NCBI GenBank assembly: GCA_002737365.1
Contig: NSIL01000008.1
Coordinates: 1 to 64,000 of the forward strand
Reading direction: 5' to 3'
Source of the DNA: Acidobacterium sp.
GTDB taxonomy: Bacteria; Acidobacteriota; Vicinamibacteria; Vicinamibacterales; UBA2999
Length of the DNA stretch: 64,000 nt
Shown here: positions 28,646 through 42,338 of the stretch, piece after piece
How positions within the stretch are numbered: the stretch's first letter is position 1
Layout of the letters: every line of letters starts with the position of its first letter
Notes under the pieces: generated by a model
Told to the model about the DNA's origin: nothing
The model's database searches: none
Seen by the model: the letters and a program-made list of their open reading frames with translations, nothing else
Program-made: the position numbers and the translations under genes

Positions 28646-29293
28646 TTAAAAGCGGCCGAGGGGGTCGGCTACTGTGAGCTTGGCACCGGTGGCGGCCATC
28701 ACGGCCTCAAGCGTCGTGTCGCTGGCGATCTCCTTCAGCAGCAGGCCGTCCGGCGTCACGTCGATCACGGCCAGCTCGGTCACGATTTGGTTGACCACCT
28801 TCAGCCCCGTGAGTGGCAGCATGCACTTGGGCAGAATCTTGTGTCCGCCGTCCCTGGTGGTGTGCTCCATGGCAATGACTACGCGCTTGGCACCGGCCAC
28901 CAGGTCCATGGCGCCCCCCATGCCCTTCACCATCTTTCCGGGGATCATCCAGTTGGCGAGGTTGCCCTCGGCATCCACTTCGAGGGCGCCCAGCACCGTG
29001 ACATCGATGTGTCCACCGCGGACCATCGCGAACGAGTCAGCGCTGCTGAAGTACGACGTGCCGGGCAACTCGGTGACGGTCTCCTTCCCGGCATTGATCA
29101 AGTCGGCGTCGACTTCGGCCTCGCGCGGATACGGCCCAACCCCGAGCATGCCGTTCTCAGAGTGCAACGTGATTTCGACGCCGGGCGGGACGCAGTTGCC
29201 GACCAGGGTCGGCATCCCGATACCCAGGTTGACGTAATCGCCGTCCTTGAGGTCGCGGGCAATGCGCTGCACAATGCGGTCGCGCTTATCCAT
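28646..29293 (-). CDS. scoB: 3-oxoacid CoA-transferase subunit B
   Basis: Beta subunit of the enzyme that moves CoA from succinyl-CoA to acetoacetate (or a related 3-oxoacid). The 215 residues contain the opening [27 protein letters not shown], the catalytic Glu in [29 protein letters not shown] and [19 protein letters not shown], all typical. It overlaps scoA by 8 bases. It lies at the tail of the trp/aro operon, an unusual place, although tyrosine breakdown also yields acetoacetate. Confidence 0.94.
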
Positions 29294-29981
29294 TGGTGAT
29301 GGTCCGTTTCTCGATCCGCTTCACGTAGCTGGGACCCTGTAACAGCCGCTTCACGAAGATGCCGGGGGTATGGATGCCGTCGGGTTCGAGCGCGCCGGCG
29401 TCTACTAGTTCTTCGACTTCAGCGATGGTGTGACGCGCGGCGGTGGCCATCATGGGATTGAAGTTGCGGGCGGTCTTGCGATACACGAGGTTGCCGATCC
29501 GGTCGCCCTTCCAGGCCTTGATGAAGGCGAAGTCGGCAGATAGCGGCGCTTCCAAAATGTAGGTGCGGCCGTCGATGACACGGCTTTCTTTCCCTGCCGC
29601 AATCAGCGTACCCGCGCCGGTCGGTGTGAAGAATCCACCGATGCCCGCGCCGGCCGCTCGCATGCGCTCCGAAAACGTGCCCTGCGGCACCAACTCAACC
29701 TCGATCTCCTTCTGCAGGAACTGCCGCTCGAACTCCTTGTTCTCACCGACGTAGGTCGAGATCATCTTGCGCACCTGGCGCGACTTGAGCAGCGGCCCGA
29801 CCCCGTAGTCGTCGATGCCAGCGTTGTTGCTGATAATGGTCAGGTTCCTGGTGCCGCGGCGATGCAGCGCGGCAATCAGATGTTCGGGAATACCGCAAAG
29901 CCCAAAACCGCCCATCATAATGCTGGCGCCATCGGGAATCGCGGCGACGGCCTCGTCGGCAGTGGCCAGGACCTTGTTCAT
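29286..29981 (-). CDS. scoA: 3-oxoacid CoA-transferase subunit A
   Basis: Alpha subunit partner of ScoB. The 231 residues show the CoA-transferase signature [40 protein letters not shown], and [17 protein letters not shown]. Its ATG is only 7 bases after the tyrA stop, so it is co-transcribed with the aromatic genes. Which acid is used (acetoacetate, 3-oxoadipate or another) cannot be fixed from sequence alone; acetoacetate is the most common for this subgroup. Confidence 0.94.
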
Positions 29982-29988
29982 GTCCCGA

Positions 29989-30780
29989 TTATAGGCAGGA
30001 AGACTTGGCGCGCGCCGCTTCGGCGAAGAATCGGCGGACGGCGTCGCGATCGTCGAGCTGCTCGGACAGCACGACCAACTCCGCGGCGAACTGGCGCAAG
30101 AGCGGCTTAATTTCTTGGCTGTTGGTCGACAGGATGCTCTCCCATACGCTGGCCTGGCTGCCGGCGAGTCGCGTCGTGTCGCGCAAGCCCCTGCCGGCCC
30201 ACGTGAGATTGTCGGTGCCGACCGCCCGATCGACGGTCAGCATCAGCGCACTGGCGACCAGTTGCGGCAGGTGGCTGACCGCGGCCATGAGTCGATCGTG
30301 TTCCTCGCCTTGATCGGTGAGCACCACCGGCCTGGCGCCAAGCGCCTCGACGAACTTGACGGCGCGGCGAACCGCATCGGGAGCATCGGGATTGGCCAGG
30401 AACCACGGGCGGCCATCGAACAGGTCGGCCCGTGCCTCAGAAGGCCCCGTGGTGGTGCCGCCGGCCATGGGATGACCACCGACGAACTGCGATAGGCGGG
30501 CCGCACTGGCGGCCGCCATCACCGCACGCTTGGTGCTCCCGGTGTCGAGCACCAGCGCCTGGCGATGCATGACCGCGCCGAGGCGCGGCAGCGTCTGGAT
30601 GATCACATCCACCGGCATCGCCAGGACGACCACCAGCGAGTCGCCGATGGTTTCGAGCGGCTCGCCCTGGTCCACGGTGCGGACCTCGAGACCCGGCCAT
30701 CGCCGGGCCGCCGCCAGCGCGATCGAGGTGCCGATTAATCCCGGTCCGACGACGGCGAGCCGGGGCTGAGTGTCAGGCAT
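29989..30780 (-). CDS. tyrA: prephenate dehydrogenase
   Basis: NAD(P)-dependent oxidative decarboxylation of prephenate (or arogenate) towards tyrosine. The 263 residues have the Rossmann motif VVGPGLIGTSIALA, VLDTGSTKRAV, the substrate motif VGGHPMAGG and HDRLMAAVSHLPQLVASAL. There is no C-terminal ACT domain, so feedback control, if any, is in the core or at the level of the upstream DAHP synthase. The 49-base gap from aroF carries four GGCACC nonamers and a GAGAGAAG ribosome site. Confidence 0.93.
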   Translation of the reverse strand: MPDTQPRLAVVGPGLIGTSIALAAARRWPGLEVRTVDQGEPLETIGDSLVVVLAMPVDVIIQTLPRLGAVMHRQALVLDTGSTKRAVMAAASAARLSQFVGGHPMAGGTTTGPSEARADLFDGRPWFLANPDAPDAVRRAVKFVEALGARPVVLTDQGEEHDRLMAAVSHLPQLVASALMLTVDRAVGTDNLTWAGRGLRDTTRLAGSQASVWESILSTNSQEIKPLLRQFAAELVVLSEQLDDRDAVRRFFAEAARAKSSCL

Positions 30781-30791
30781 TTACTTCTCTC

Positions 30792-30827
30792 GGCACCTTA
30801 GGCACCCGAGGCACACTAGGCACCGTG
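30792..30827. repeat. four tandem 9-bp GGCAC(C/A)nnn units
   Basis: GGCACCTTA, GGCACCCGA, GGCACACTA and GGCACCGTG follow one another in exact 9-base register. They fill the gap between aroF and tyrA. Similar units occur at 34176-34198 and 54856-54876. Confidence 0.65.
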
Positions 30828-30829
30828 TT

Positions 30830-31876
30830 CTACCTCGCCCAACCGCGCCGGGCGACGGGCTCGAGACAGATGCTGCGGCCAATAGCCGGAGCGATGATTC
30901 GCAGTTCCGCCATCAGGCGATCGAATTGCGCCGGGAACATCGACTGCGCGCCGTCACTCAAGGCGTGATCGGGGTCGTTGTGCACCTCGATGATCAGGCC
31001 ATCAGCACCGGCGGCCACCGCCGCGCGCGCCATCGGCGCCACCTTGTCACGGCGGCCCATCCCGTGGCTCGGATCCACGAAGATCGGCAGATGGGACAGC
31101 TCCTTCACGATTGGGATCGCCGACAAGTCGAGCGTGTTGCGCGTGAAGGTCTCGAAGGTGCGGATGCCACGTTCGCACAAGATCACGTCGGTGTTGCCGC
31201 CGGCCAGGATGTACTCCGCCGATAGCAGCAACTCCTCCATGGTCGCGGCGATGCCGCGCTTGAGCAGGATCGGCTTGCGGGTGCGGCCGAGCTCGCGGAG
31301 CAGCGTGAAGTTCTGCATGTTGCGCGCGCCGACCTGGTAGATGTCGGTGTACTTGCCGATCACCTCGATCTGGCTGGCGTCCATGACCTCGGTCACCAGT
31401 TTCAGGTCGTGGGTATTGGCGCCCGAGCGCAGCAACTGCAGGCCGGCCTCGCCCATGCCCTGGAAGCTGTACGGCGACGAACGCGGCTTGAAGGCGCCGC
31501 CGCGTAGAATCTTGGCGCCGGCGCGCTTGACGGCTGCGGCCGTGGTGTCGACCTGTTCTTCGCTCTCGGCCGAACAGGGCCCGGCAATCACGATTACTTC
31601 GTCGCCGCCGATCCGGAGGTCGCCGATGGTGATGATGGTGTCGTCGGGCTTGAAGGTGCGGCTGGCCAGCTTGTACGGCTGGGTGATGCGCAGCACCTCG
31701 TGCACCCCGGCCATCAACTCGATCAGCCGCGGGTCAACCTTGCCGCCGCCGACCACACCCAGTACGATGCGCGCGGCACCAGTCGAACGGTGCACGTCCA
31801 TGCCCATTCCCACGAGGCTGGCGATTACCGTTTCAACTTCGAGATCACTCGCCCGCTCTTTCATCACCACAACCAT
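30830..31876 (-). CDS. aroF: 3-deoxy-7-phosphoheptulonate (DAHP) synthase, type I-beta
   Basis: First step of the shikimate pathway: PEP plus erythrose-4-phosphate. The 348 residues comprise a regulatory ferredoxin-like N-terminal domain (about 1-70, ETVIASLVGMGMDVHRSTG) and the TIM barrel with IAGPCSAESEEQV, GGAFKPRSSPYSFQG, and LPIFVDPSHGMGRRD. The N-terminal domain in this subgroup binds Tyr or Phe, giving allosteric feedback. It begins 2 bases after the chorismate mutase stop. Having the committing enzyme inside the trp operon is notable. Confidence 0.95.
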   Translation of the reverse strand: MVVVMKERASDLEVETVIASLVGMGMDVHRSTGAARIVLGVVGGGKVDPRLIELMAGVHEVLRITQPYKLASRTFKPDDTIITIGDLRIGGDEVIVIAGPCSAESEEQVDTTAAAVKRAGAKILRGGAFKPRSSPYSFQGMGEAGLQLLRSGANTHDLKLVTEVMDASQIEVIGKYTDIYQVGARNMQNFTLLRELGRTRKPILLKRGIAATMEELLLSAEYILAGGNTDVILCERGIRTFETFTRNTLDLSAIPIVKELSHLPIFVDPSHGMGRRDKVAPMARAAVAAGADGLIIEVHNDPDHALSDGAQSMFPAQFDRLMAELRIIAPAIGRSICLEPVARRGWAR

Positions 31877-31878
31877 GA

Positions 31879-32196
31879 CTATTCCTTTTCCTTCTTCTCG
31901 CGCGCATCCCGCTCGGCTTCCACGCGCTGAATGCGCCGGGCCTCGTCCATGATGCGTTCATACAACCGTGCGATGGCGTCGCCGTCGAGCGGGCCACCAA
32001 GCTCTTCACTCACCCTTCGCACGTGGGCAATCACCGCGGCCTCTCGCGCCGGCTCGTAGATAGGTCGACCCAGTTCGTGCTTCAGGCGGCCCACCGTGTA
32101 GGCGCAACGCGCGCGGCTATCGAGCAGGCGAACGATCACCTCATCGATCTTGTCGATCTCGTCCCGGAGCGCCTCGAGATTCAGTTCCGCAGCCAT
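31879..32196 (-). CDS. aroQ: chorismate mutase (AroQ type)
   Basis: Converts chorismate to prephenate. The 105 residues are an all-helical AroQ domain: LEALRDEIDKIDEVIVRLLDSRARCAYTVGRLKHELGRPIYEPAREAAVI contains the conserved Arg, Lys and Glu positions, followed by a charged C-terminal tail. The start at 32196 overlaps trpA by 16 bases. It is free-standing, not fused to DAHP synthase or prephenate dehydratase; its next neighbour is DAHP synthase, with which AroQ often forms a complex. Confidence 0.92.
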   Translation of the reverse strand: MAAELNLEALRDEIDKIDEVIVRLLDSRARCAYTVGRLKHELGRPIYEPAREAAVIAHVRRVSEELGGPLDGDAIARLYERIMDEARRIQRVEAERDAREKKEKE

Positions 32197-32966
32197 CGCA
32201 CATACCGCTCCACCTCGTCCAGCAGGCCCGGGGCCTGTCCGTGCTCGGCAATGACTTTCACCAACGCGCTTCCCACCACCGCCGCGTCGGCCCACTGGCC
32301 GACCGCCTTGACATGCTCGGGCCGGGACAACCCGAAGCCCAGTGCCAGCGGCATCGCGGTTTCGGCCTTCACCCGTTCGGCCAGTTCCCTGGCTGAGTCG
32401 TCCACCGTATCGCGAACGCCGGTCACACCCAGTCGGGAGATGCCATACAGAAACCCGCTGCCCAGTTCCGACGCCTTGCGGATCCGCTCGACCGTCGTCG
32501 TCGGACTCAGTAGAAAAATTGTCTCAATCCCTGCCCCGGTAAAAGCGCTGCGGAAGGCTTCGCCTTCCTCGGGCGGCATGTCCAGGGTCAGCACCCCATC
32601 GACGCCGGCCTGCCTGGCCCCCTCGACAAATCGGTCCAGACCCATCCGAAGTATCGGATTGGCGTAGCTAAAGATGACGACCGGGGCCGAAATATCTGCG
32701 CGGATCCCGGCCAGCATGGCGAGGACCTTCGGGAGGGTCGTTCCGGCTGCCAGGGCCCGTTCGGTGGCCCGCTGGATCACCGGTCCATCGGCCAAGGGAT
32801 CGGAGAATGGGACCCCCAGCTCGATGACGTCGGCGCCGGCTTTGTCGAGCCGCTTCATGATCCCGGCGGTCCGCTCCAGATCGGGGTCGCCCGCCGTGAT
32901 GTAGGTCACGAGGCCGGTCTCGTGCCTGGCGCGCAGCGCCTTGAAGCGTTCGCTAATTCGCGACAC
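32181..32966 (-). CDS. trpA: tryptophan synthase alpha chain
   Basis: Cleaves indole-3-glycerol phosphate to indole, which is tunnelled to TrpB. The 261 residues form a TIM barrel with [13 protein letters not shown], the catalytic Glu in [32 protein letters not shown] (catalytic Asp), FLLSPTT and [13 protein letters not shown]. It overlaps trpB by 14 bases. Confidence 0.96.
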
Positions 32967-34200
32967 GGTCGGCCTCCGTCAGAATCTGCTCCACGGTCTG
33001 GACGTCCTTGTCACCGCGCCCCGACACGTTCACCAGGAGCACGGTGTCGGGACCGAAGCGCCTGGCACTCTTCAAGACGTAGGCAATCGCATGGGCCGAT
33101 TCCAGGGCTGGGATGATGCCTTCGAGGCGTGCCAACTGCTGGAAGGCGTCGAGCGCCTCGGCGTCAGTGGCATACGGATACTCGGCGCGTCCCGTTTCCT
33201 GCAGGTACGCGTGCTCCGGGCCGACGGCCGCGTAGTCGAGGCCGGCCGACACCGAATGCGTCGCCTCGATGTTGCCGTGTTCGTCCTGCAGCACATACGT
33301 CCGCGTCCCCTGCAGCACGCCGGCGGCGCCGCCCGCGAATCTTGCCGCATGCCGGCCCGAGCGAATGGCCTCACCACCGGCTTCGACACCGATCAAGACC
33401 ACGTTCGCATCATCGATGAAGGCATCGAAGATGCCGATGGCATTACTGCCGCCGCCGACGCACGCGATCACCGCGTCGGGCAGCCGTCCCACCTGCGCCA
33501 GGCATTGCCGGCGCGCCTCCCGGCCGATGACCGATTGAAACTCGCGAACCATGAGGGGATAGGGGTGAGGGCCGAGGGCCGAGCCCAGCAAGTAGTGCGT
33601 GTCGTCAGGCCGCGCCACCCAGTCGCGCATCGCCTCGTTGATGGCGTCTTTCAAGGTGCAACTGCCGGAATCCACGCCGACGACAGTGGCGCCGAGCAGG
33701 CGCATGCGGAACACGTTCAGGGCCTGGCGATGCATGTCCTCGGTGCCCATGTAGACGACGCACTCGAGCCCGAGCAGGGCGCACGCCGTGGCGCTGGCGA
33801 CGCCGTGCTGTCCGGCGCCGGTCTCGGCCACAATCCGCCGCTTGCCCATGCGCTGGGCCAACAGGGCCTGGCCTAGGGCGTTGTTGATCTTGTGCGCGCC
33901 GGTATGCGTGAGATCCTCGCGCTTCAGGAGAATGCGGCCGCCACCGCACGCCGCGCTCAGGCGCCGCGCGTCCCACAGCGGGGTTTCGCGACCGACATAG
34001 TGCTCCAGCAGGCGCTGCAACTCGGCGACGAACTGCGGATCGCAGCGCGCCTTGAGATACTCCGCCTCCAGCGCCTGGATGGGCGCGACCAGGGTTTCGG
34101 GGACGAATCGTCCACCGAAAGCGCCGAAGTAGCCGCCCACCGGATCGCGCCGGCCAAACCAAGAAGAAGGTGCCATAGGTGCCAAAGGGTTAAGTGCCAT
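32953..34200 (-). CDS. trpB: tryptophan synthase beta chain
   Basis: PLP enzyme that joins indole and serine. The 415 residues show [15 protein letters not shown], the PLP-lysine block [37 protein letters not shown] and the C-terminal SGRGDKD. An ATG at 34200 overlaps trpF by 11 bases and has AGAGG close by; a second ATG at 34176 would also give a plausible N-terminus. Two GGCACC repeat units lie between these starts. Confidence 0.96.
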
Positions 34201-34792
34201 TGCCTCTTACCGCGTCCATAAAAGCGCGAAGTCTCAGGTGATCTTTGATGCCCGGTGTGGCCTCAACACCAGACGCGACATCTACTGCGTACGGACGCAC
34301 CATCGCGATTGCCTCGCGCACGTTCAACGGGGTAAGCCCGCCCGCCAATACGATGCGCCGCTTGGCCGCCACCGCTCGCGCCCGCGTCCAATCCACCGTC
34401 TGGCCCGTGCCGCCATGTCGGACCGGGTCGTGCGCATCGAGCAACACCGTGTCGTCGTCCACATTCGGCTCAATCGCATCGCCGGTCGAGCTCAAGTGAA
34501 CGGCCCTCAACACCGGCAGCCGAAGCACCCCCGCCGGCACCAAGCCATGGACCTGGGCAAGGCGCAGCCCGGAGTCGGCGGCCCCGGCCAGGTCGTCGGC
34601 CGACGGATTCACGAAGACACCGACGGGCGTCACGAACGGCGGTAGGTGGCGAACGATCGCGGCGACGGCTGCCGTCGTGGTGTGCCGCGGACTAGCCGGC
34701 CACAACACGAAGCCGAGGGCGTTGGCCCCGAAGGCCACTGCGGCCTCAGCATCCCCGCGCCTGGTGATGCCGCAGATCTTGATGGTGGTCAC
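34190..34792 (-). CDS. trpF: phosphoribosylanthranilate isomerase
   Basis: Third committed Trp step (Amadori rearrangement). The 200 residues show the opening [28 protein letters not shown] (catalytic Cys), [13 protein letters not shown], and the C-terminal phosphate site [14 protein letters not shown]. It overlaps trpC by 4 bases and trpB by 11. Confidence 0.95.
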
Positions 34793-35631
34793 GCCCCACC
34801 TTCGCCAGGGCTACGGTGGGCTAACGGTGTGTCCAGCGACCTGAGCAGTCCGGCCAGGGCGGCGCCTGGGTCTGGATCGACCATGAACCGTTCACCCATC
34901 AGGAAGGCCTGGTAGCCGAGTGCCTTCATTGCTGCCAGGTCGGCCGGCGTCTTGAGGCCGCTTTCGCTGATGCCGATGACGCCCTTGGGAATGCGAGCCG
35001 CGATCACGCGCGAGGCGTCGAGATCGACGTCAAGAGTCCGCAGGTTGCGGTTGTTCACCCCGATCAGCGACGCTCCGGCACCGAGCGCCCGATCGCACTC
35101 TTCGAGATCGTGTACTTCCACCAGAGCAGCCAGCCCCAGCGAGCGGGCGTCATCCAGGAGCCGGCGCAAGTCGGCATCGCTCAGGGCGGACACGATCAGC
35201 AGAATCGCGTCGGCGCCTGCGGCGCGCGCTTCGAGCAGTTGATACTCGTGGACCATAAAGTCCTTGCGCAACACGGGGATCGTCACGGCGTCCCGAACTG
35301 CGACCAGCTGTAGCAGCGAACCATCGAAGAATCCGGGCTCTGTCAGCACCGAGATGGCCGCCGCGCCGGCCCGCTCGTAGGCGGCCGCGATCGCCACGGG
35401 GTCATACGCCGATCGCAAGACACCCCGGGACGGCGAGCGGCGCTTGCATTCCGCGATGATGTTGACGGTGTCAGGCCGAGACAGCCGCGCGGTAAACCCC
35501 GCGCCATTCGGCGTCCGCGCCATCGCCCGCCGCTCGAGAGCCGCGCGAGGCTCACCGGCGATCGCCGCCTCGACGCGCGACTGGGTGGCCGCAACGATCG
35601 CGCCGAGCAGGTCAGGTGGCGCGTTGGTCAC
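34789..35631 (-). CDS. trpC: indole-3-glycerol phosphate synthase
   Basis: Closes the indole ring. The 280 residues show NIIAECKRRSPSRGVLR (catalytic Lys), VLTEPGFFDGSL, VLRKDFMVHEYQLLEARAAGADAILLI, GVNNRNLRTLDVDL and SESGLKTPADL, the usual active-site blocks of a separate TrpC. It overlaps trpD by 4 bases. Confidence 0.96.
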   Translation of the reverse strand: MTNAPPDLLGAIVAATQSRVEAAIAGEPRAALERRAMARTPNGAGFTARLSRPDTVNIIAECKRRSPSRGVLRSAYDPVAIAAAYERAGAAAISVLTEPGFFDGSLLQLVAVRDAVTIPVLRKDFMVHEYQLLEARAAGADAILLIVSALSDADLRRLLDDARSLGLAALVEVHDLEECDRALGAGASLIGVNNRNLRTLDVDLDASRVIAARIPKGVIGISESGLKTPADLAAMKALGYQAFLMGERFMVDPDPGAALAGLLRSLDTPLAHRSPGEGGA

Positions 35632-36647
35632 TTCGACCCGCCGTTGGAGACGCGAACCAGAGTCTCGAGCATGGCCGACGCGGCACCACTGTCGATGGCC
35701 GCTTCGGCCTGCGCCACGCCCGCGCGAACAGTGACAGCCTGGCCGGCGATGAAGAGCGCGGCGCCGCTGTTCATCAGCACGACATCACGCGGCGCCCCCT
35801 TGGTGCCGGACAGCACGCTGCTGACAATCGCCGCATTGGTCTGGGCGTCGCCGCCTTTGAGGGACTCCGAAGTCGCCTTGGCCAATCCGAAATCCGCAGG
35901 GTGCACGTAGAACGTCTGCACGGTGTTGTTCCGGCACTCCGAGACCTTGGTGTAGCCGGTGGTCGACAGCTCGTCGAGGCCATCGGCGCCGTGCACGACC
36001 CACGCAAGCTCTGAGCCGAGCAACGCCAGCGCACGCGCCATCAGTTCGGTCAAATCGGGTCGAGGGACACCCACAATCTGGCGGCTCGGACGAGCGGGAT
36101 TCGTCAGGGGCCCCAACAGGTTGAAGGCGGTCCGAATCCCAAGGTCCTTTCTGGCCTGCGCCGCATGTTTCATGGCCGGGTGGAAGGTCGGCGCAAAGAA
36201 GAACGCGATACCCACCTCAGCGAGACAGGTTACGGCGACATTGGGCGACGCCTGGATGTTGACGCCGAGCACTTCGAGAACGTCGGCGCTGCCGCACTGG
36301 CTTGAGGCCGACCGGTTGCCGTGCTTGGCGACCCGGGTGCCACACGCGGCCATGACGATCGCGGCGGCAGTTGAGATATTGAAGGTGCCCGACCGATCAC
36401 CACCGGTACCGCACGTATCGAACAGTGGACCGGCCTGCTCGGGCACGGTCAGCGCATTCGCGCGCATCGTCTGCGCCAGGCCGACCAGTTCGGCTGGCCG
36501 CTCGCCTTTGATGGCCAGTCCCACCAACAGACCGGCAATCTGCGCCGGCGACGCTTCGCCGCGCATGATGGCCGCCATCGCCGCTGCCGCTTCGGCGGTG
36601 GTCAGATCTTCCTGGTGGCGCAACTTCTCGAGCAGGGCTGGAAACAT
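35628..36647 (-). CDS. trpD: anthranilate phosphoribosyltransferase
   Basis: Second Trp step. The 339 residues show the PRPP site DTCGTGGDRSGTFNISTAAA, the KHGNRSASSQCGSADVLEVLG anthranilate region, RKDLGIRTAFNLLGPLTNPA and VVHGADGLDEL. Starts GTG (36653) and ATG (36647) are both usable; the GTG overlaps the trpG stop as GTGA. Not fused to TrpG. Confidence 0.96.
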   Translation of the reverse strand: MFPALLEKLRHQEDLTTAEAAAAMAAIMRGEASPAQIAGLLVGLAIKGERPAELVGLAQTMRANALTVPEQAGPLFDTCGTGGDRSGTFNISTAAAIVMAACGTRVAKHGNRSASSQCGSADVLEVLGVNIQASPNVAVTCLAEVGIAFFFAPTFHPAMKHAAQARKDLGIRTAFNLLGPLTNPARPSRQIVGVPRPDLTELMARALALLGSELAWVVHGADGLDELSTTGYTKVSECRNNTVQTFYVHPADFGLAKATSESLKGGDAQTNAAIVSSVLSGTKGAPRDVVLMNSGAALFIAGQAVTVRAGVAQAEAAIDSGAASAMLETLVRVSNGGSK

Positions 36648-36649
36648 CG

Positions 36650-37216
36650 TCACATCTCGAGGAAGTTGCGGAGGATCCGGCGGCCCTCGTTGGTGAGCAC
36701 CGATTCCGGGTGGAATTGCACGCCATGAGTGGGTAGCGTCTTGTGGCGGATGCCCATCACGAGGTTGTCTTCCTTGGTGCGCGCGGTCACCTCGAGATCG
36801 GCCGGCATCGTTGGCTCCGACACGATCAGCGAGTGATAGCGACCCGCCTGAAACGACGCGGAGATGCTCGCGAACACGCCCTTGCCGTTGTGTTCGACGG
36901 TGGAGGTCTTGCCGTGAATAGGCTGCGGAGCGCGAATAACCTCCCCGCCAAAGGCCAGACCGATGGCTTGATGACCGAGGCACACGCCAAGGACTGGCAT
37001 GCGCGGCCCAAACTCGCGGATCACATCCAGCGACACACCGGCCTGCTCAGGCCGGCCGGGGCCGGGCGAAATTACGACGCGATCATGCCCAAGGGCCCGC
37101 AACTGGTCGAGTGATGCCTCGTCGTTGCGGCGAACCACCATGGTGGCGCCCAACTCGCCCAGGTACTGGACGAGGTTATAGGTAAACGAATCGTAGTTGT
37201 CGATGACCAGGACCAT
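36650..37216 (-). CDS. trpG: anthranilate synthase component II (glutamine amidotransferase)
   Basis: Supplies ammonia from glutamine to TrpE. The 188 residues contain the opening VLVIDNYDSFTYNLVQYLGELGA, the oxyanion ISPGPGRPEQAG, the nucleophile Cys in LGVCLGHQAIG, and the His/Glu pair in GVQFHPESVLT. It may also serve p-aminobenzoate synthesis, as single TrpG/PabA subunits often do; no pabB is in the window. Confidence 0.95.
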   Translation of the reverse strand: MVLVIDNYDSFTYNLVQYLGELGATMVVRRNDEASLDQLRALGHDRVVISPGPGRPEQAGVSLDVIREFGPRMPVLGVCLGHQAIGLAFGGEVIRAPQPIHGKTSTVEHNGKGVFASISASFQAGRYHSLIVSEPTMPADLEVTARTKEDNLVMGIRHKTLPTHGVQFHPESVLTNEGRRILRNFLEM

Positions 37217-37222
37217 GGTTGT

Positions 37223-38695
37223 CTACAGTCCCGTCTGCGCCAGTTCCAGCGCCCGCAACATTGCCCGCGCCTTGTCTTTCGTCTCTTCGTATTCCGCGGC
37301 GGGATTCGAGTCGGCGACGATGCCGGCGCCCGCCTGAATGTAGGCCTTGCCATCCTCCATCAGGATTGACCGGATGGCGATGCAGAAGTCGAGATTGCCG
37401 GCGAAGTCGAGATAGCCGACGGCGCCGGCGTAGAGCCCGCGGCGGTCCGGCTCGAGCTCGTTGATGATCTGCATGGCCCGTACCTTGGGCGCTCCCGAGA
37501 CGGTGCCGGCGGGGAAACACGACACCAGCGCGTCGAGCCGGTCGCGGCCCTCGGCCAGTTGCCCTTCCACGACCGAGACCAGGTGCATGACATGCGAGTA
37601 CCGTTCGAGCGCCATGAACTTGGACACGCGGACCGTACCGTAGTCGCAGACCCGGCCAATATCGTTGCGACCCAGGTCGACCAGCATCACATGCTCGGCC
37701 TTTTCTTTTTCACTACGCTTGAGTTCTTCGGCGAGCCGCACGTCTTCCTCGTCCGTCTTGCCGCGCGGGCGCGTGCCGGCGATGGGATGCGTGACGGCAT
37801 GGCGGCCCTCGACGCGCACCAGCATCTCCGGTGATGACCCGACGATTGAGCGGTCGCCCATGCGAATGAAAAACATGTACGGCGAGGGATTGACATGGCG
37901 CAACGCGCGATACACGGTGAAGGCATCGACACCCACCTCGGCTTCGAACCGCTGTGACAGCACGACCTGGTAGACGTCGCCGGCCGCGATGTAGTCCTTG
38001 GCCGTCTGGACGATCGATTCGTAGCCTTCCTGCGAGAAGTTCGAGACTAGCTTCAGCGCCTCGCCGCCGGTGGTTCGCTTCAGCGACAGCGCGCGATCGA
38101 GCTCGCCCTCGAGAAACTCGATCTTGGCGCAGGCAAACTGGTAGAGCGACTTGAGATCTTCGTCGCCCGAGATGCGCGCGTTGGCGATCAGTAGAATGCG
38201 GTGTTGCACGTGGTCGAAGGCCAGGACGGTGTCGAACAGCATGAATCCGGCATCGTCGCGGTCCGACCTGTTGGCGTCCGCGCGTGCGGTGCTTGGCTCG
38301 AACCAGGCCGCGGTGCCATACCCCAGGTAGCCCACGGCGCCGCCGGTGAAGCGCGGCAGGCCGGGCACGAACGGCGACTGGAAGCTGTTCATCAAGTCGC
38401 GCAGCGTGTCGACGAACGGCCTCTCGGCCCGGCTCGTCACGCCCGCCCTCGCGATCTCGGTCTCGCCGTTCTTGCCGCGCAGGATCAGGAAGGGATCCTT
38501 ACCCAGAAACGAATAGCGCCCGACATGTTCGCCGCCCTCGACGCTTTCGAGGAGGAAGGCATAGTCGGAGTGTTCGGCAATCTTCAGGAAAGCCGATACC
38601 GGCGTCAGCAAGTCGGCGACCAGCTCCTTGCACACCGGCACAAACGTGCCCCGCTTCGCGAGATCCACGAACTCTTCGAACGTCGTCTGCTTCAT
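37223..38695 (-). CDS. trpE: anthranilate synthase component I
   Basis: Chorismate plus ammonia to anthranilate. The 490 residues show the Trp feedback-site region near LLESVEGG (residues about 49-56), then the chorismate-binding domain with GDVYQVVLSQRFE, PSPYMFFIRMGDRSIVGSSPEM, TRPRGKTDEEDVRLAEEL, MLVDLGRNDIGRV, and PAGTVSGAPKVRAMQIINELEP. The LLES motif is the one that binds tryptophan for feedback inhibition in other bacteria. The ATG overlaps the aroDE stop as ATGA. Confidence 0.96.
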   Translation of the reverse strand: MKQTTFEEFVDLAKRGTFVPVCKELVADLLTPVSAFLKIAEHSDYAFLLESVEGGEHVGRYSFLGKDPFLILRGKNGETEIARAGVTSRAERPFVDTLRDLMNSFQSPFVPGLPRFTGGAVGYLGYGTAAWFEPSTARADANRSDRDDAGFMLFDTVLAFDHVQHRILLIANARISGDEDLKSLYQFACAKIEFLEGELDRALSLKRTTGGEALKLVSNFSQEGYESIVQTAKDYIAAGDVYQVVLSQRFEAEVGVDAFTVYRALRHVNPSPYMFFIRMGDRSIVGSSPEMLVRVEGRHAVTHPIAGTRPRGKTDEEDVRLAEELKRSEKEKAEHVMLVDLGRNDIGRVCDYGTVRVSKFMALERYSHVMHLVSVVEGQLAEGRDRLDALVSCFPAGTVSGAPKVRAMQIINELEPDRRGLYAGAVGYLDFAGNLDFCIAIRSILMEDGKAYIQAGAGIVADSNPAAEYEETKDKARAMLRALELAQTGL

Positions 38696-40146
38696 TGCTG
38701 CTCCATCAAACCGAGCCGGGCAACCGCGGCATCGCGCATGACGCGGTCAGCGGGTCGCTGCTCAGTCCACCATTCAAATTGCGCCTGCGCTTGCGCCACG
38801 AGCATGTCGAGACCGCCGATGGTGCGGCAGCCGGCGGCGGCCGCTTCACGCAGGAGCTGCGTCTGCGGCGGGTTGTAAACCAGGTCGTAGACGAGTTCAC
38901 CGTCGAAGGTGTGCCCGGCCGGCAGTGGCGACTGGTCGTCGTGTGGCCTAGTGCCGGCGGGCGTGGCGTTCACGAGCACGTCCCAACTGCCTGCCGCCGG
39001 CGGCCACGGGGCGATCGCCGCGCCGGTCAGTGCCGCGATCGGCCGGGCCTGCTCGGGCCGGCGCGCACACAACGTCACTCGCACCCCCTTCGAGGCCAAG
39101 GCCACCGCGACTGAGCGGGCGGCACCCCCGGCGCCGAGCACCGTGCCGCGCTTGTCCGTGAGTCTCATGGCTGATTCCAGCGGCGACAGGAATCCCGCCA
39201 CATCGGTGTTGCACCCCAGCCATTTCGCTCCGACTCGTCTCAGGGTGTTGACCGACTGAATGCGACGGCTGACCGGATCGCATTCGTCAGCACGATCGAA
39301 GGCCGGCACCTTGAACGGCGCCGTGACGCTGGCGCCGGCGAGGTTGATCGCCTCGGCAAAGATCATGAAGTCGTCGAAATCCGTGGCCGCGAGCGGCAGG
39401 TAGACCGCGTCGAGGTTGGCGGCGCGCAAGGCGGCGTTGTGCATTGATGGCGACACGGAGTGGCCCACCGGCTTGCCGACGACGCCGTAGATGGCGGTGT
39501 GAGACCCAATCTGTCGGAAGCGGAACTCGTGGTGCAGGCGCTGAACATCGATCTGCCCGGGAGCCACATGGTCACCGGCGTAGGTCCAACAGGACCCGAA
39601 CCAGCTCGCCAGCACCCGAGTGGCAGCACCGGCGTCGCCCATGGCGATCAGTGCCATCGGCACACGCGTCTGTTGACCTAGCGCTCGCAGCGTCAGGCAG
39701 TCCTGCAGGCGGTGCGCGGTGATGGCCACCTTCACCACCTCGGCACCGCTCGAGAGCATGGCCTGCGCCTTGTCCTTCAGGTCGGCGGGGGTGCCTTGGA
39801 AGTCGTGGTGGGACAGGACGATTCGTCGTCCACCGGTCTGCGCGATCAGGTCGGCGCAACTGCCCTGCCACTCGACGTCCACGTACTCGGCCCCGAGCGA
39901 CAGGGCCTCGGCGAGAATGCGCCGCCGCTCTTCTTCGCTGCCCTTGAACATGCCGCCCTCAGACGTTGGCCGGCAGGTCACGATGACCGGCTTCTTTCGG
40001 CCGGCCAGCGCGGCGGCCGCGCTCGGGTCGCGTACCGAATCCAGCCGCAACTCCACCAGGTCGGCATCGCCTACCTGGTCGCGCTGTGTACGCAGATCGG
40101 CCATGGTGTCGGCCGTCACGGTCGCGCAGAGTTTTGCGGTCTTCAT
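38692..40146 (-). CDS. aroDE: bifunctional 3-dehydroquinate dehydratase / shikimate dehydrogenase
   Basis: Fusion of two consecutive shikimate steps. Residues about 1-215 are a type I dehydroquinase: VELRLDSVRD, VIVTCRPTSEGG, the His in RIVLSHHDFQGTP, and the Schiff-base Lys in VVKVAITAH. Residues about 220-484 are AroE: YGVVGKPVGHSVSPSMHNAAL, NLAGASVTAPFKVPAF, GCNTDVAGF, the NADPH loop GAGGAARSVAVAL and DLVYNPPQTQLL. ATG 40146 is preferred over a TTG six bases upstream. Same-order AroD-AroE fusions are known from plants and some bacterial phyla. It is the first structural gene behind the trp attenuator. Confidence 0.94.
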   Translation of the reverse strand: MKTAKLCATVTADTMADLRTQRDQVGDADLVELRLDSVRDPSAAAALAGRKKPVIVTCRPTSEGGMFKGSEEERRRILAEALSLGAEYVDVEWQGSCADLIAQTGGRRIVLSHHDFQGTPADLKDKAQAMLSSGAEVVKVAITAHRLQDCLTLRALGQQTRVPMALIAMGDAGAATRVLASWFGSCWTYAGDHVAPGQIDVQRLHHEFRFRQIGSHTAIYGVVGKPVGHSVSPSMHNAALRAANLDAVYLPLAATDFDDFMIFAEAINLAGASVTAPFKVPAFDRADECDPVSRRIQSVNTLRRVGAKWLGCNTDVAGFLSPLESAMRLTDKRGTVLGAGGAARSVAVALASKGVRVTLCARRPEQARPIAALTGAAIAPWPPAAGSWDVLVNATPAGTRPHDDQSPLPAGHTFDGELVYDLVYNPPQTQLLREAAAAGCRTIGGLDMLVAQAQAQFEWWTEQRPADRVMRDAAVARLGLMEQQ

Positions 40147-40178: not shown

Positions 40179-40212
40179 AAAAAACGCCTCTCCCCATTCG
40201 GGCTGAGAGGCG
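40179..40212 (-). terminator. intrinsic terminator of the trp attenuator
   Basis: On the minus strand CGCCTCTC (40212-40205) pairs perfectly with GAGAGGCG (40192-40185). Inside, CCC pairs with GGG across a GAAT loop. TTTTTT follows immediately. It ends 32 bases before the aroDE ATG, so without antitermination it would stop transcription ahead of the whole operon. Confidence 0.85.
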
Positions 40213-40267
40213 CTTCGGTCGAGCGTTGTATGAACGCGTCGTGGTTATACGGACCGGTCAGCCTCTC
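40205..40267 (-). promoter_or_regulatory. competing antiterminator pairing of the trp leader
   Basis: GAGAGGC (40267-40261), which lies within the leader peptide frame, can pair with GCCTCTC (40211-40205), the left arm of the terminator, and so block it. GAGAGGC is itself partly held by a small CAGC/GCTG hairpin (40273-40270 with 40262-40259). This gives the usual set of mutually exclusive structures. Confidence 0.7.
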
Positions 40268-40310
40268 CTGCTGGGCACCAATACCACCACGTACGCACAC
40301 CGCTCCCCAT
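40245..40310 (-). CDS. trpL: trp leader peptide (attenuator control codons)
   Basis: A 21-codon frame reading MGSGVRTWWYWCPAG..., stopping at TAA 33 bases before the terminator stem. Three of the four residues at positions 8-11 are Trp (TGG TGG TAT TGG, 40289-40278), with one Tyr between them. In trp attenuators of Proteobacteria and Actinobacteria, a ribosome stalled at such codons frees the antiterminator. A GTG at codon 5 has GGGGAG four bases upstream and may be the true start (17 residues); the ATG has no good ribosome site. The frame lies between a promoter region and a U-tract terminator on the operon strand, so the regulatory reading is strong. Confidence 0.8.
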   Translation of the reverse strand: MGSGVRTWWYWCPAGEADRSV

Positions 40311-40373
40311 CCGGTCAAAAGACCAGCTCTGGGACGCGGTAAACAAGACTCGTGAGCGCATGTGAACGTTGAA

Positions 40374-40403
40374 AGGCTAACAGACCCCGAGCACCGGCGT
40401 CAA
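40374..40403 (-). promoter_or_regulatory. possible promoter of the trp/aro supraoperon
   Basis: TTGACG (40403-40398) and TAGCCT (40379-40374) are 18 bases apart, upstream of the leader frame. The -35 is good and the -10 weak. It would give a leader of roughly 60 bases before the peptide. Confidence 0.3.
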
Positions 40404-40464: not shown

Positions 40465-40496
40465 CAATGATAAGTCATCTTTTATCTGACATTTGC

Positions 40497-42338
40497 ATGA
40501 AATCACGTGTTTTCGCTCTCGTCGCCCTCGTGCTTTGTGTGCTCGCAGTCTCGCCGCGCGCGCAACTGGCCACCATGCCGCTCGACGAGGTGCGCCCAGG
40601 GATGGTCGGCGTAGGCCGTACGGTCTTCTCAGGCACCACCCTCGAAGACTTCAAGGTCAACATCCTGGGGGTCCTTCGCAACGTAATTGCCCCCAAGCGG
40701 AGCCTGATCCTGGCCAAACTCGAGGGCGGGCCGCTGGCCAGGACTGGGGTAATCGCCGGCATGAGCGGCAGTCCCGTCTACATCGACGGACGCCTGGTCG
40801 GCGCGGTGTCCTATTCACTGGGGCAGTTCTCGACCGAGCCGATTGCTGGCATCACGCCGATTGCCGACATGATCGACGCGACCATGATGCCGGCGACCGC
40901 GCGAGGATCGCGGCCCGTGGCCATTACCTGGCCGGCGACCACACGGCAGCTCATCGACATCTGGTCCAACGACCTTGGCCGCTCACGGGCGTTTGTGGAC
41001 GACCCGTCGCAGGCGATGGTGCTCTCGGGTGCCTCGACTGACCTGGGCCGCATGGGAGCCATGCTGCGTCCGATCGCCGTGCCGATGGTGGCGGCGGGCT
41101 TCGACGTGTCGGTGATGGACCCCCTGTCCCCGGCTTTTGCCGCGGCCGGCTTCGTGCCGATGTCGAGCGCGGCACAGTCGCCGGGCGGCAGCGCCGCCGG
41201 CGGCAACGACCACAAGCTCGCGCCAGGCGATGCCGTCGGCGTGGCGCTGATGACCGGCGACTTTGAACTGGGCGCCACCGGGACCGTTACCCACGTGGAC
41301 GGCGAACGGGTCTACGCCTTTGGCCACCCGCTCTATAACCTCGGCCCCACCGAGTTCCCGATGACCCGGGCCGAAGTGCAAGTCGTCCTGCCCAGCCTGA
41401 TGGCGTCGAGCAAACTCGCCAGCTTCGGCGCCGTGGTCGGGACGATTCAGCAGGATCGCTCCACTGCCATTGCCGGACGGCTCGGCGTGGGGCCATCGCT
41501 CATCCCCGTGACCATCACGCTCCACTCCGATCGCGGCCCCTCGCGGTCGTTCCGTTTTGGTGTCGTTCGCGACTTCACCTTCACGCCGCTGCTGACCTAC
41601 CTGTCGGTGGCCAATGTCCTGACGGCGTACGAACGCGGTGCCGGGCCGGCCTCGTTTGCCATTCGCGGCACGGCCGCCATCCGCGCGCAGGAAAACATCA
41701 CCTTTGAGGACATGTTCTCCGGCGAACAGCCGGCGGGCGCCGCCGCCGCCTACATCGCCGGTCCGCTCACGGCGTTGCTGAAGAACTCGGCCGAGGATGT
41801 TGAGGTGGACAAGATCGATCTTGTGATCGACGCCAGCGAACAACAGCGCAGCGCCCGGATCGAACGCGTCTGGCTCGACACCACGCGTCCGCGTGCCGGC
41901 CGTGAGGCGGTTGTGTTCGTCGCGATGCGCGATGCGCGTGGCCGCGAAGTGATTAAGCAGGTGCCGATTCAATTACCGGCCAACGCGACGGGCTCGCTGC
42001 AGTTGGTCGTCGCGGACGCGGCCCGGACGACGGCGGATGATCGCCGCGACACCCGCGGCGCCGACCTGCAACGCGTGTCGCAATTGATCCGCACGTTCAA
42101 TCGCGCCCGCCGCAACAACCGCCTTTACGTCCGTCTCACCTCTCCCGACTCCGGCGCCGTTGTCAACGGCGAGCCCATGGCGGCGCTGCCGCCGTCGGTG
42201 CTGTCGGTCTTCGACGCCGACCGCAACAGCGGTACGGTCGGTGCCCTGCGTTCCACGACCCGCGGCGAGTGGGAAATTCCGCTCGAGTTTGCCGTGACCG
42301 GTTCGCGCCAGTTGACCCTCAACCTCGATCAACCTTGA
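40497..42338 (+). CDS. SpoIVB-type peptidase (family S55) domain protein, secreted
   Basis: A 613-residue exported protein. After a signal peptide (MKSRVFALVALVLCVLAVSP) comes MPLDEVRPGMVGVGRTVFSGTTLEDF and the nucleophile region TGVIAGMSGSPVYIDGRLVGAVSYSLG, the S55 hallmark. A second block, VYAFGHPLYNLGPTEFPMTRA, supplies the typical conserved His. The C-terminal half is beta-rich (about 380-610) and not recognised. In Bacillus this fold signals during sporulation, but nothing here suggests spores; related proteins occur in Acidobacteriota with unknown targets. The stop overlaps the next start (TGATG). Confidence 0.85.
   Translation: MKSRVFALVALVLCVLAVSPRAQLATMPLDEVRPGMVGVGRTVFSGTTLEDFKVNILGVLRNVIAPKRSLILAKLEGGPLARTGVIAGMSGSPVYIDGRLVGAVSYSLGQFSTEPIAGITPIADMIDATMMPATARGSRPVAITWPATTRQLIDIWSNDLGRSRAFVDDPSQAMVLSGASTDLGRMGAMLRPIAVPMVAAGFDVSVMDPLSPAFAAAGFVPMSSAAQSPGGSAAGGNDHKLAPGDAVGVALMTGDFELGATGTVTHVDGERVYAFGHPLYNLGPTEFPMTRAEVQVVLPSLMASSKLASFGAVVGTIQQDRSTAIAGRLGVGPSLIPVTITLHSDRGPSRSFRFGVVRDFTFTPLLTYLSVANVLTAYERGAGPASFAIRGTAAIRAQENITFEDMFSGEQPAGAAAAYIAGPLTALLKNSAEDVEVDKIDLVIDASEQQRSARIERVWLDTTRPRAGREAVVFVAMRDARGREVIKQVPIQLPANATGSLQLVVADAARTTADDRRDTRGADLQRVSQLIRTFNRARRNNRLYVRLTSPDSGAVVNGEPMAALPPSVLSVFDADRNSGTVGALRSTTRGEWEIPLEFAVTGSRQLTLNLDQP

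Follow-up and report, generated by a model that had tools for sequence, protein, structure and literature searches.

A predicted ribosome-mediated transcription attenuator before an aromatic supraoperon of Acidobacteriota

The leader region and the genes that follow it

The window, by which we mean the whole stretch of 64,000 nucleotides that was analysed, carries on its minus strand a supraoperon that covers the entry step of the aromatic pathway, two shikimate steps, the Trp branch in full and the beginning of the branch to Tyr and Phe. Its first structural gene, aroDE, is preceded by a leader region with a promoter, a short aromatic-rich frame and an intrinsic terminator. The features are the following.

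40398-40403, minus strand: -35 box TTGACG of the leader promoter; pattern kept in relatives
40374-40379, minus strand: -10 box TAGCCT (TAnnnT; 18-nt spacer); pattern kept in relatives, 12 nt to the leader start here
40245-40361, minus strand: predicted leader frame of 38 codons and a stop, MRSRVLFTASQSWSFDRMGSGVRTWWYWCPAGEADRSV; start and reading frame shared within the genus
40278-40289, minus strand: putative regulatory codons Trp-Trp-Tyr-Trp, TGG TGG TAT TGG; read directly, codon class kept in the order
40261-40267, minus strand: segment 2, GAGAGGC, antiterminator 5' arm within the leader frame; helix with segment 3
40252-40256, minus strand: CGGTC, possible antiterminator extension with partner GACCG at 40220-40216; read directly, conserved in the genus alignment
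40216-40220, minus strand: GACCG, partner of CGGTC at 40256-40252; read directly, conserved in the genus alignment
40205-40212, minus strand: segment 3, CGCCTCTC, terminator left arm and antiterminator right arm; pairing and covariation
40185-40192, minus strand: segment 4, GAGAGGCG, terminator right arm; covariation of the terminator helix
40179-40184, minus strand: U tract (six U) of the intrinsic terminator; read directly
38692-40146, minus strand: aroDE, first structural gene, a fusion of 3-dehydroquinate dehydratase and shikimate dehydrogenase; TIGR01093 and TIGR00507 score above cut-off
32181-38695, minus strand: trpE, trpG, trpD, trpC, trpF, trpB and trpA; NCBIfam matches
29989-32190, minus strand: chorismate mutase (TIGR01807), DAHP synthase (TIGR01361) and prephenate dehydrogenase (tyrA; PF02153/PF20463)

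Read directly from the minus strand in the 5' to 3' direction, TTGACG (40403-40398) is followed after 18 nt by TAGCCT (40379-40374), then by the ATG at 40361, Trp-Trp-Tyr-Trp and GAGAGGC, and after these by the TAA stop (40247-40245), CGCCTCTC (40212-40205), GAGAGGCG (40192-40185), TTTTTT (40184-40179) and the aroDE ATG at 40146. Subunits A and B of a 3-oxoacid CoA-transferase lie on the same strand at 28646-29981, only 7 nt past tyrA, so that the aromatic operon may extend to the CoA-transferase genes. On the other side, a divergent plus-strand gene with a SpoIVB peptidase S55 domain (40467-42338) adjoins the leader promoter. A search for aroDE relatives in viral contigs found none.

The first-pass annotation of this DNA had described the main parts of the leader, and most of that description is borne out by direct reading. 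The minus-strand frame with Trp-Trp-Tyr-Trp is present at 40289-40278, and the terminator is indeed a GC-rich helix of 8 bp (CGCCTCTC/GAGAGGCG), to which an inner CCC/GGG is added, the arms being separated by AG and then CCC GAAT GGG. The distance from the six-U tract to the aroDE ATG at 40146 is exactly the 32 bases that had been given, and 38 nt separate the end of the hairpin from the aroDE start. The proposed pairing of GAGAGGC (40267-40261) with the left arm of the terminator also stands, and the resulting antiterminator GAGAGGC/GCCTCTC is longer than had been described, as it can be extended by CGGTC (40256-40252) with GACCG (40220-40216).

The predicted fold of the window leader has an energy of -60.6 relative to a shuffle mean of -47.1 (z of -3.3), and only 1 of 200 dinucleotide shuffles does better. 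A 1:2 protector hairpin is strong in this fold and clear in the genus of the window, and it is absent from the order-wide consensus. Within the genus, segment 2 forms a helix of only 7-9 bp, which taken alone is mostly no better than in shuffles (p of 0.08-0.3 per sequence in most), and the support for the antiterminator comes from the wider order.

The least secure part of the first description was the start of the leader frame, which had been given a length of 17-21 codons. While the frame itself was right, the assumed start ATG at 40310-40308 reads ATT, ATC, TTT or ACC in sister species, whereas the ATG at 40361-40359, 12 nt past the conserved -10 box, is retained by most of them together with the MRSR that opens the peptide. 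The leader probably starts at 40361, and the ATG at 40310 is probably wrong; the conserved ATG and promoter would give an almost leaderless frame of 38 residues. A promoter of the form TTGA[CT]N-N16-19-TANNNT immediately precedes the leader in 56 of 61 relatives and occurs in 0.7% of shuffled sequences, with a median distance of 16 nt from the -10 box to the leader start (12 nt in the window), which would leave a 5' untranslated part of only about 5-15 nt. Since this part is short and an SD-like sequence at the leader start is rare (4 of 56), the leader seems close to leaderless. A transcript start downstream of the leader had been named as evidence against attenuation; the conserved promoter (40403-40374 in the window) is instead upstream, and transcription therefore very likely starts before the leader. 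Codon-position counts in the genus leader are mildly biased, and we left them out of the argument for coding.

Conservation of the leader across the order

To place the site in its order we use the aroDE loci of relatives within it, 61 distinct ones that span at least 14 families (63 less one duplicate and one region taken from the wrong side, L042), and a strict joint test that asks for a cluster of aromatic codons in a short frame, followed by a terminator within 130 nt. An aromatic-rich short leader frame precedes aroDE at all 61 loci. The strict joint test is passed by 50 of the 61 loci, compared with 0 of 305 dinucleotide shuffles and 0 of 61 antisense strands, where the shuffle counts overstate the significance because the compared sequences are related. 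The 11 loci that fail do so mostly through interrupted U tracts or thresholds. Within the window, among 566 half-overlapping 450-nt segments on both strands, this site is the only one that passes. Typical leader peptides end in YASYWWWYRTATEGAAGV or contain AWWYW, AWYWYW or NWWWFFYF. One record, L032 (CAMBHC010000034.1), is titled Candidatus Sulfopaludibacter, yet its aroDE is 89% identical to that of the window and its contig belongs to a genome placed in the genus of the window, so the record name looks wrong.

Both helices are kept together with compensating changes. For the terminator, 92.9% of cells are paired and 8 of 13 pairs have changed on both sides, with 43 two-sided cells as compared to a shuffle average of 14, a value of 43 being reached by 0 of 500 shuffles. 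In the antiterminator (segment 2:3), 85.5% of cells are paired and two-sided changes are found in 6 of 11 pairs. Segment 2 is coded as Glu-Ala or Glu-Gly-Ala across the order, and in some loci all three segments have changed in step, as in L054 with GCCGAGGGGGCG / CGCCCCTTCGGC / GCCGACGGGGCG. The first-pass annotation had proposed aligning the upstream regions of relatives and had regarded a loss of the Trp codons or of the terminator stem as counting against it; in the alignment both are conserved order-wide and the stems covary. A covariance model built on 58 of the leaders (R1) matches at E<1e-14 in all 24 same-order genomes of a 247-genome sample of the phylum, with weak matches elsewhere, and it matches the genome of the window only once. 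The codons, frame, promoter, terminator and alternative helix, and the conservation of each, are properties of the sequences themselves.

What the leader would sense and how it would act

Attenuation of this kind can be examined further by modelling the position of the ribosome. With a ribosome on the second Trp codon and an assumed footprint of 12 nt downstream, segments 2 and 3 are paired with a mean probability of 0.97, and with a probability above 0.5 in all 58 leaders. Under the same assumed footprint, a ribosome at the stop codon masks segment 2 and the segment 2:3 pairing is gone. In the model the antiterminator thus forms in 58 of 58 leaders when the ribosome is stalled and cannot form when it is at the stop. 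As segment 2 had been picked for giving the best helix, the fairer figure is the control with shuffled linkers, in which pairing of the arm is 0.57 as compared to 0.96 observed.

The first-pass annotation took Trp, and perhaps Tyr, to be the signal. The Trp part stands, as at least two Trp codons are present in 58 of 58 leaders and Trp is the only residue that reaches two or more in all 58. Beyond Trp, the sensor looks multi-aromatic (Trp plus Tyr/Phe), with Tyr more than an incidental addition: the control regions contain Tyr in 56 of 58 and Phe in 26 of 58, with one or the other in 57 of 58, and extreme aromatic runs such as WWWFFYF occur. Both synonymous codons are in use for Tyr (TAT 56, TAC 31) as well as for Phe (TTT 19, TTC 13); the amino-acid class is conserved and the codon letters are not, which is the pattern that codon sensing predicts. 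Tyr and Phe codons beside Trp also suit an operon that serves the aromatic pathway as a whole. Given the conserved codons and the genes of the operon, we consider it likely, though less certain than for Trp, that the leader senses Tyr and Phe as well.

The competing reading is a strict Trp sensor, in which the neighbouring Tyr and Phe codons are incidental and serve, for instance, to tune stalling or RNA folding. It is a tenable, if somewhat doubtful, reading: the unique standing of Trp in all 58 leaders agrees with it, as does the fact that trp genes are the largest share of the operon, while the near-universal Tyr or Phe with both synonymous codons, the extreme runs and the presence in the operon of DAHP synthase, chorismate mutase and prephenate dehydrogenase speak against it. 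The content of the operon, aroDE-trpEGDCFBA-chorismate mutase-DAHP synthase-prephenate dehydrogenase, likewise fits the aromatic control of a supraoperon that had been put forward, its function being inferred.

Taken as a whole, the site is very probably a classical ribosome-mediated transcription attenuator of the aromatic supraoperon, as the first-pass annotation had interpreted it, a prediction supported by order-wide conservation, covariation and the upstream promoter. The testable defining features are present, namely a leader with codons for the products, an intrinsic terminator, a mutually exclusive antiterminator and a suitable modelled geometry. From these features we infer that the frame is translated, that ribosomes stall in it and that the operon responds to starvation. 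Transcription would begin a few nucleotides before the leader frame, with a ribosome trailing the polymerase. When charged tRNA-Trp (probably also tRNA-Tyr, and tRNA-Phe in relatives) is plentiful, the ribosome would reach the stop at 40247-40245 and cover segment 2, segment 3 would then pair with segment 4 to form the terminator, and transcription would stop near 40179. When an aromatic aminoacyl-tRNA is short, the ribosome would stall on Trp-Trp-Tyr-Trp and leave segment 2 free to capture segment 3 before segment 4 is made, so that the terminator would not form and aroDE-trpEGDCFBA-chorismate mutase-DAHP synthase-tyrA would be transcribed.

A different use of the same hairpin would be translational attenuation, with the start region of aroDE hidden in it. 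The idea draws on two other lineages (L289, L290), in which a hairpin arm includes an AGGAG-type sequence beside the start codon, but in the window 38 nt lie between the hairpin and the aroDE start, six U come directly after the hairpin, and long U tracts are found in most of the order, which makes this reading very unlikely here. Another kind of Trp sensor, with a real leader frame and the hairpin as its terminator, likewise seems very unlikely. T-box, TRAP and TrpR all regulate trp genes in other organisms, and a lone terminator would suit a T-box; none of the three, however, needs a translated frame with conserved Trp, Tyr and Phe codons. Searches with the T-box covariance model (RF00230) gave 0 of 40 genomes of the order, with control genomes positive, and TrpR was found in 0 of 31 genomes of the order. 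No Rfam family matches the site or the related leaders, and trp_leader (RF00513) in particular gives no hit at E<=5 in the window and none at E<=0.5 in 16 related loci. By themselves, hairpins and short frames occur frequently, but their chance co-occurrence before aroDE is refuted by conservation in at least 14 families (0/305 shuffles, 0/61 antisense strands, sole site among 566 window segments) and can be neglected.

Leaders elsewhere in the phylum and relation to known systems

R1 is blind to leaders outside the order, and we therefore sought these by codon content and terminator. Upstream regions of trpE in other Acidobacteriota families pass the strict joint test in 12 of 44 cases (about a quarter, one of them, L114, doubtful) as compared to 0 of 220 shuffles. 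Their leaders do not align with the leaders of the order and include NYWWY, GWWWR, YYTYYWWF, NYFWCWY, YYYWWY, AYWWSW, SRWWWN, LWHWWY and LWRWWY. In most of these regions the terminator's left arm pairs with a stretch just past the Trp codons, as in L102, L103, L105, L118, L120, L129 and L132 (p of 0.004-0.04), and the same pairing is without support in L100, L101, L127 and L137. In L127, L137 and L104 terminators of the GCCGTGG type lie far downstream of the leader stop, and a search for an antiterminator by simple pairing found none in these lineages. The minus-strand region 103-254 of L120, before trpE, has a weak likeness to Rfam His_leader (32 bits, cut-off 49) despite leader codons for Tyr, Phe and Trp.

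Comparable leaders are found before histidine genes. A His-rich leader followed by a terminator precedes hisG at 28 of 30 loci of the order (L198-L228), with His-only codons, and in the genome of the window the histidine leader MSFVHHAHRSHHHRSQNGTAGVCA lies before hisG on contig C44 (L228, 990-1064); Rfam His_leader does not match the hisG leaders of the order. In several other lineages aroDE, hisG, hisD, hisC, hisH, hisA, hisF and trpE form one gene run (ten loci checked). In 16 of 16 loci with such an aroDE-his-trp supraoperon (L288-L303), the leader upstream of aroDE combines Trp and His, a count that corresponds to about six independent genus-level lineages, as 10 of the loci come from one genus. 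A composite criterion picks out 25 sequences among 1000 shuffles and 4 among the 61 aromatic-only loci. The composite peptides include MIFISRHWHVHHS, MILVSRHWHAHHN, MRRFQVRWHWHHG, ...SQLHWHHWTHN, ...TSWWAHGHGKG, ...VWWAHGHGKG, ...HTGWWGFVHHHVE and ...RRWRPVFRHHRYHP. In L289 (about 1-470) and L290 (about 330-550) the hairpin takes in the AGGAG-type site adjoining the aroDE start, which suggests translational attenuation instead of, or besides, the transcriptional kind. G086 keeps its his and trp operons apart, and there each leader is of a single kind, pure Trp in L149 and pure His in L283. Comparable scans gave Ile/Val/Leu leaders before ilvB in 0 of 30 cases and Leu leaders before leuA in 0 of 27, so the leader scan is not promiscuous.

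The trp attenuator of E. coli and other Proteobacteria combines tandem Trp codons in a short leader with an intrinsic terminator and an antiterminator that uses the left arm of that terminator. The site here shares with trpL (RF00513) the tandem Trp codons, a terminator before the first gene and an antiterminator on the left arm. It differs in the absence of an Rfam match, in its phylum, in having aroDE as first gene and Tyr/Phe joined to the Trp run, in having segment 2 within the frame, past the Trp codons, where it reads Glu-Ala or Glu-Gly-Ala, and in an almost leaderless start with few SD-like sequences (4/56). The element works like classical attenuation but is outside the Rfam trp_leader family. 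Leaders of multiple specificity are familiar from thrL (Thr/Ile) and the ilv operons (Ile/Val/Leu), in which one leader likewise carries codons for several operon products; the sets here are instead Trp+Tyr+Phe and, in other Acidobacteriota, His+Trp, and we know of no described leader with either set. The trpL of Sinorhizobium meliloti has a leaderless start, and both leaders would be translated from very near the transcription start. The peptide of that trpL, peTrpL, is known (PMC7298713), whereas no sign of a role in trans for the peptide or the terminated RNA is seen here. For trp in Actinobacteria such as Corynebacterium and Streptomyces, attenuators of the classical type have been described that combine two or three UGG codons with a GC-rich terminator and poly-U (PMC1262725). 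With these the site shares the Trp codons, the GC-rich terminator and the poly-U, and it differs in another RNA sequence, multi-aromatic codons and the control of a whole aromatic supraoperon, and in that no T-box was found alongside in 40 genomes of the order.

Earlier predictions of attenuators in Acidobacteria came with hardly any assigned function (Naville and Gautheret 2010, PMC2965389), and short leader genes near structural genes in Acidobacteria were counted by Korolev et al. (PMC4833913), a study in which we saw no attenuator named for the phylum. As the first-pass annotation had supposed, full-text searches gave no published case of trp attenuation in Acidobacteria, and as their coverage of reviews is incomplete, any claim of priority for the phylum is provisional. 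Leaders of this kind escape annotation through their tiny size and the absence of a matching Rfam family. The chief novelty is how well the codons of a leader match what its operon makes; the set of several aromatic codons, the almost leaderless start and, provisionally, the occurrence in this phylum are new as well.

This match leads us to lean, if only slightly, toward reading the leaders of Acidobacteriota as logical OR gates, each with codons suited to its operon: Trp+Tyr+Phe for a supraoperon of all the aromatics, His alone for his operons and His+Trp for fused his and trp genes. If that reading is true, a shortage of any single product would open the whole operon, and the leaders that combine His and Trp would represent a previously undescribed kind of attenuator. 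For a major soil phylum the leaders provide a concrete and testable control of aromatic and histidine synthesis, which in the order seems independent of TrpR and T-boxes. The related operons, whether aromatic-only, histidine-only or fused, each have matching leader codons and form a natural experiment on how codons are re-fitted when operons fuse or split.
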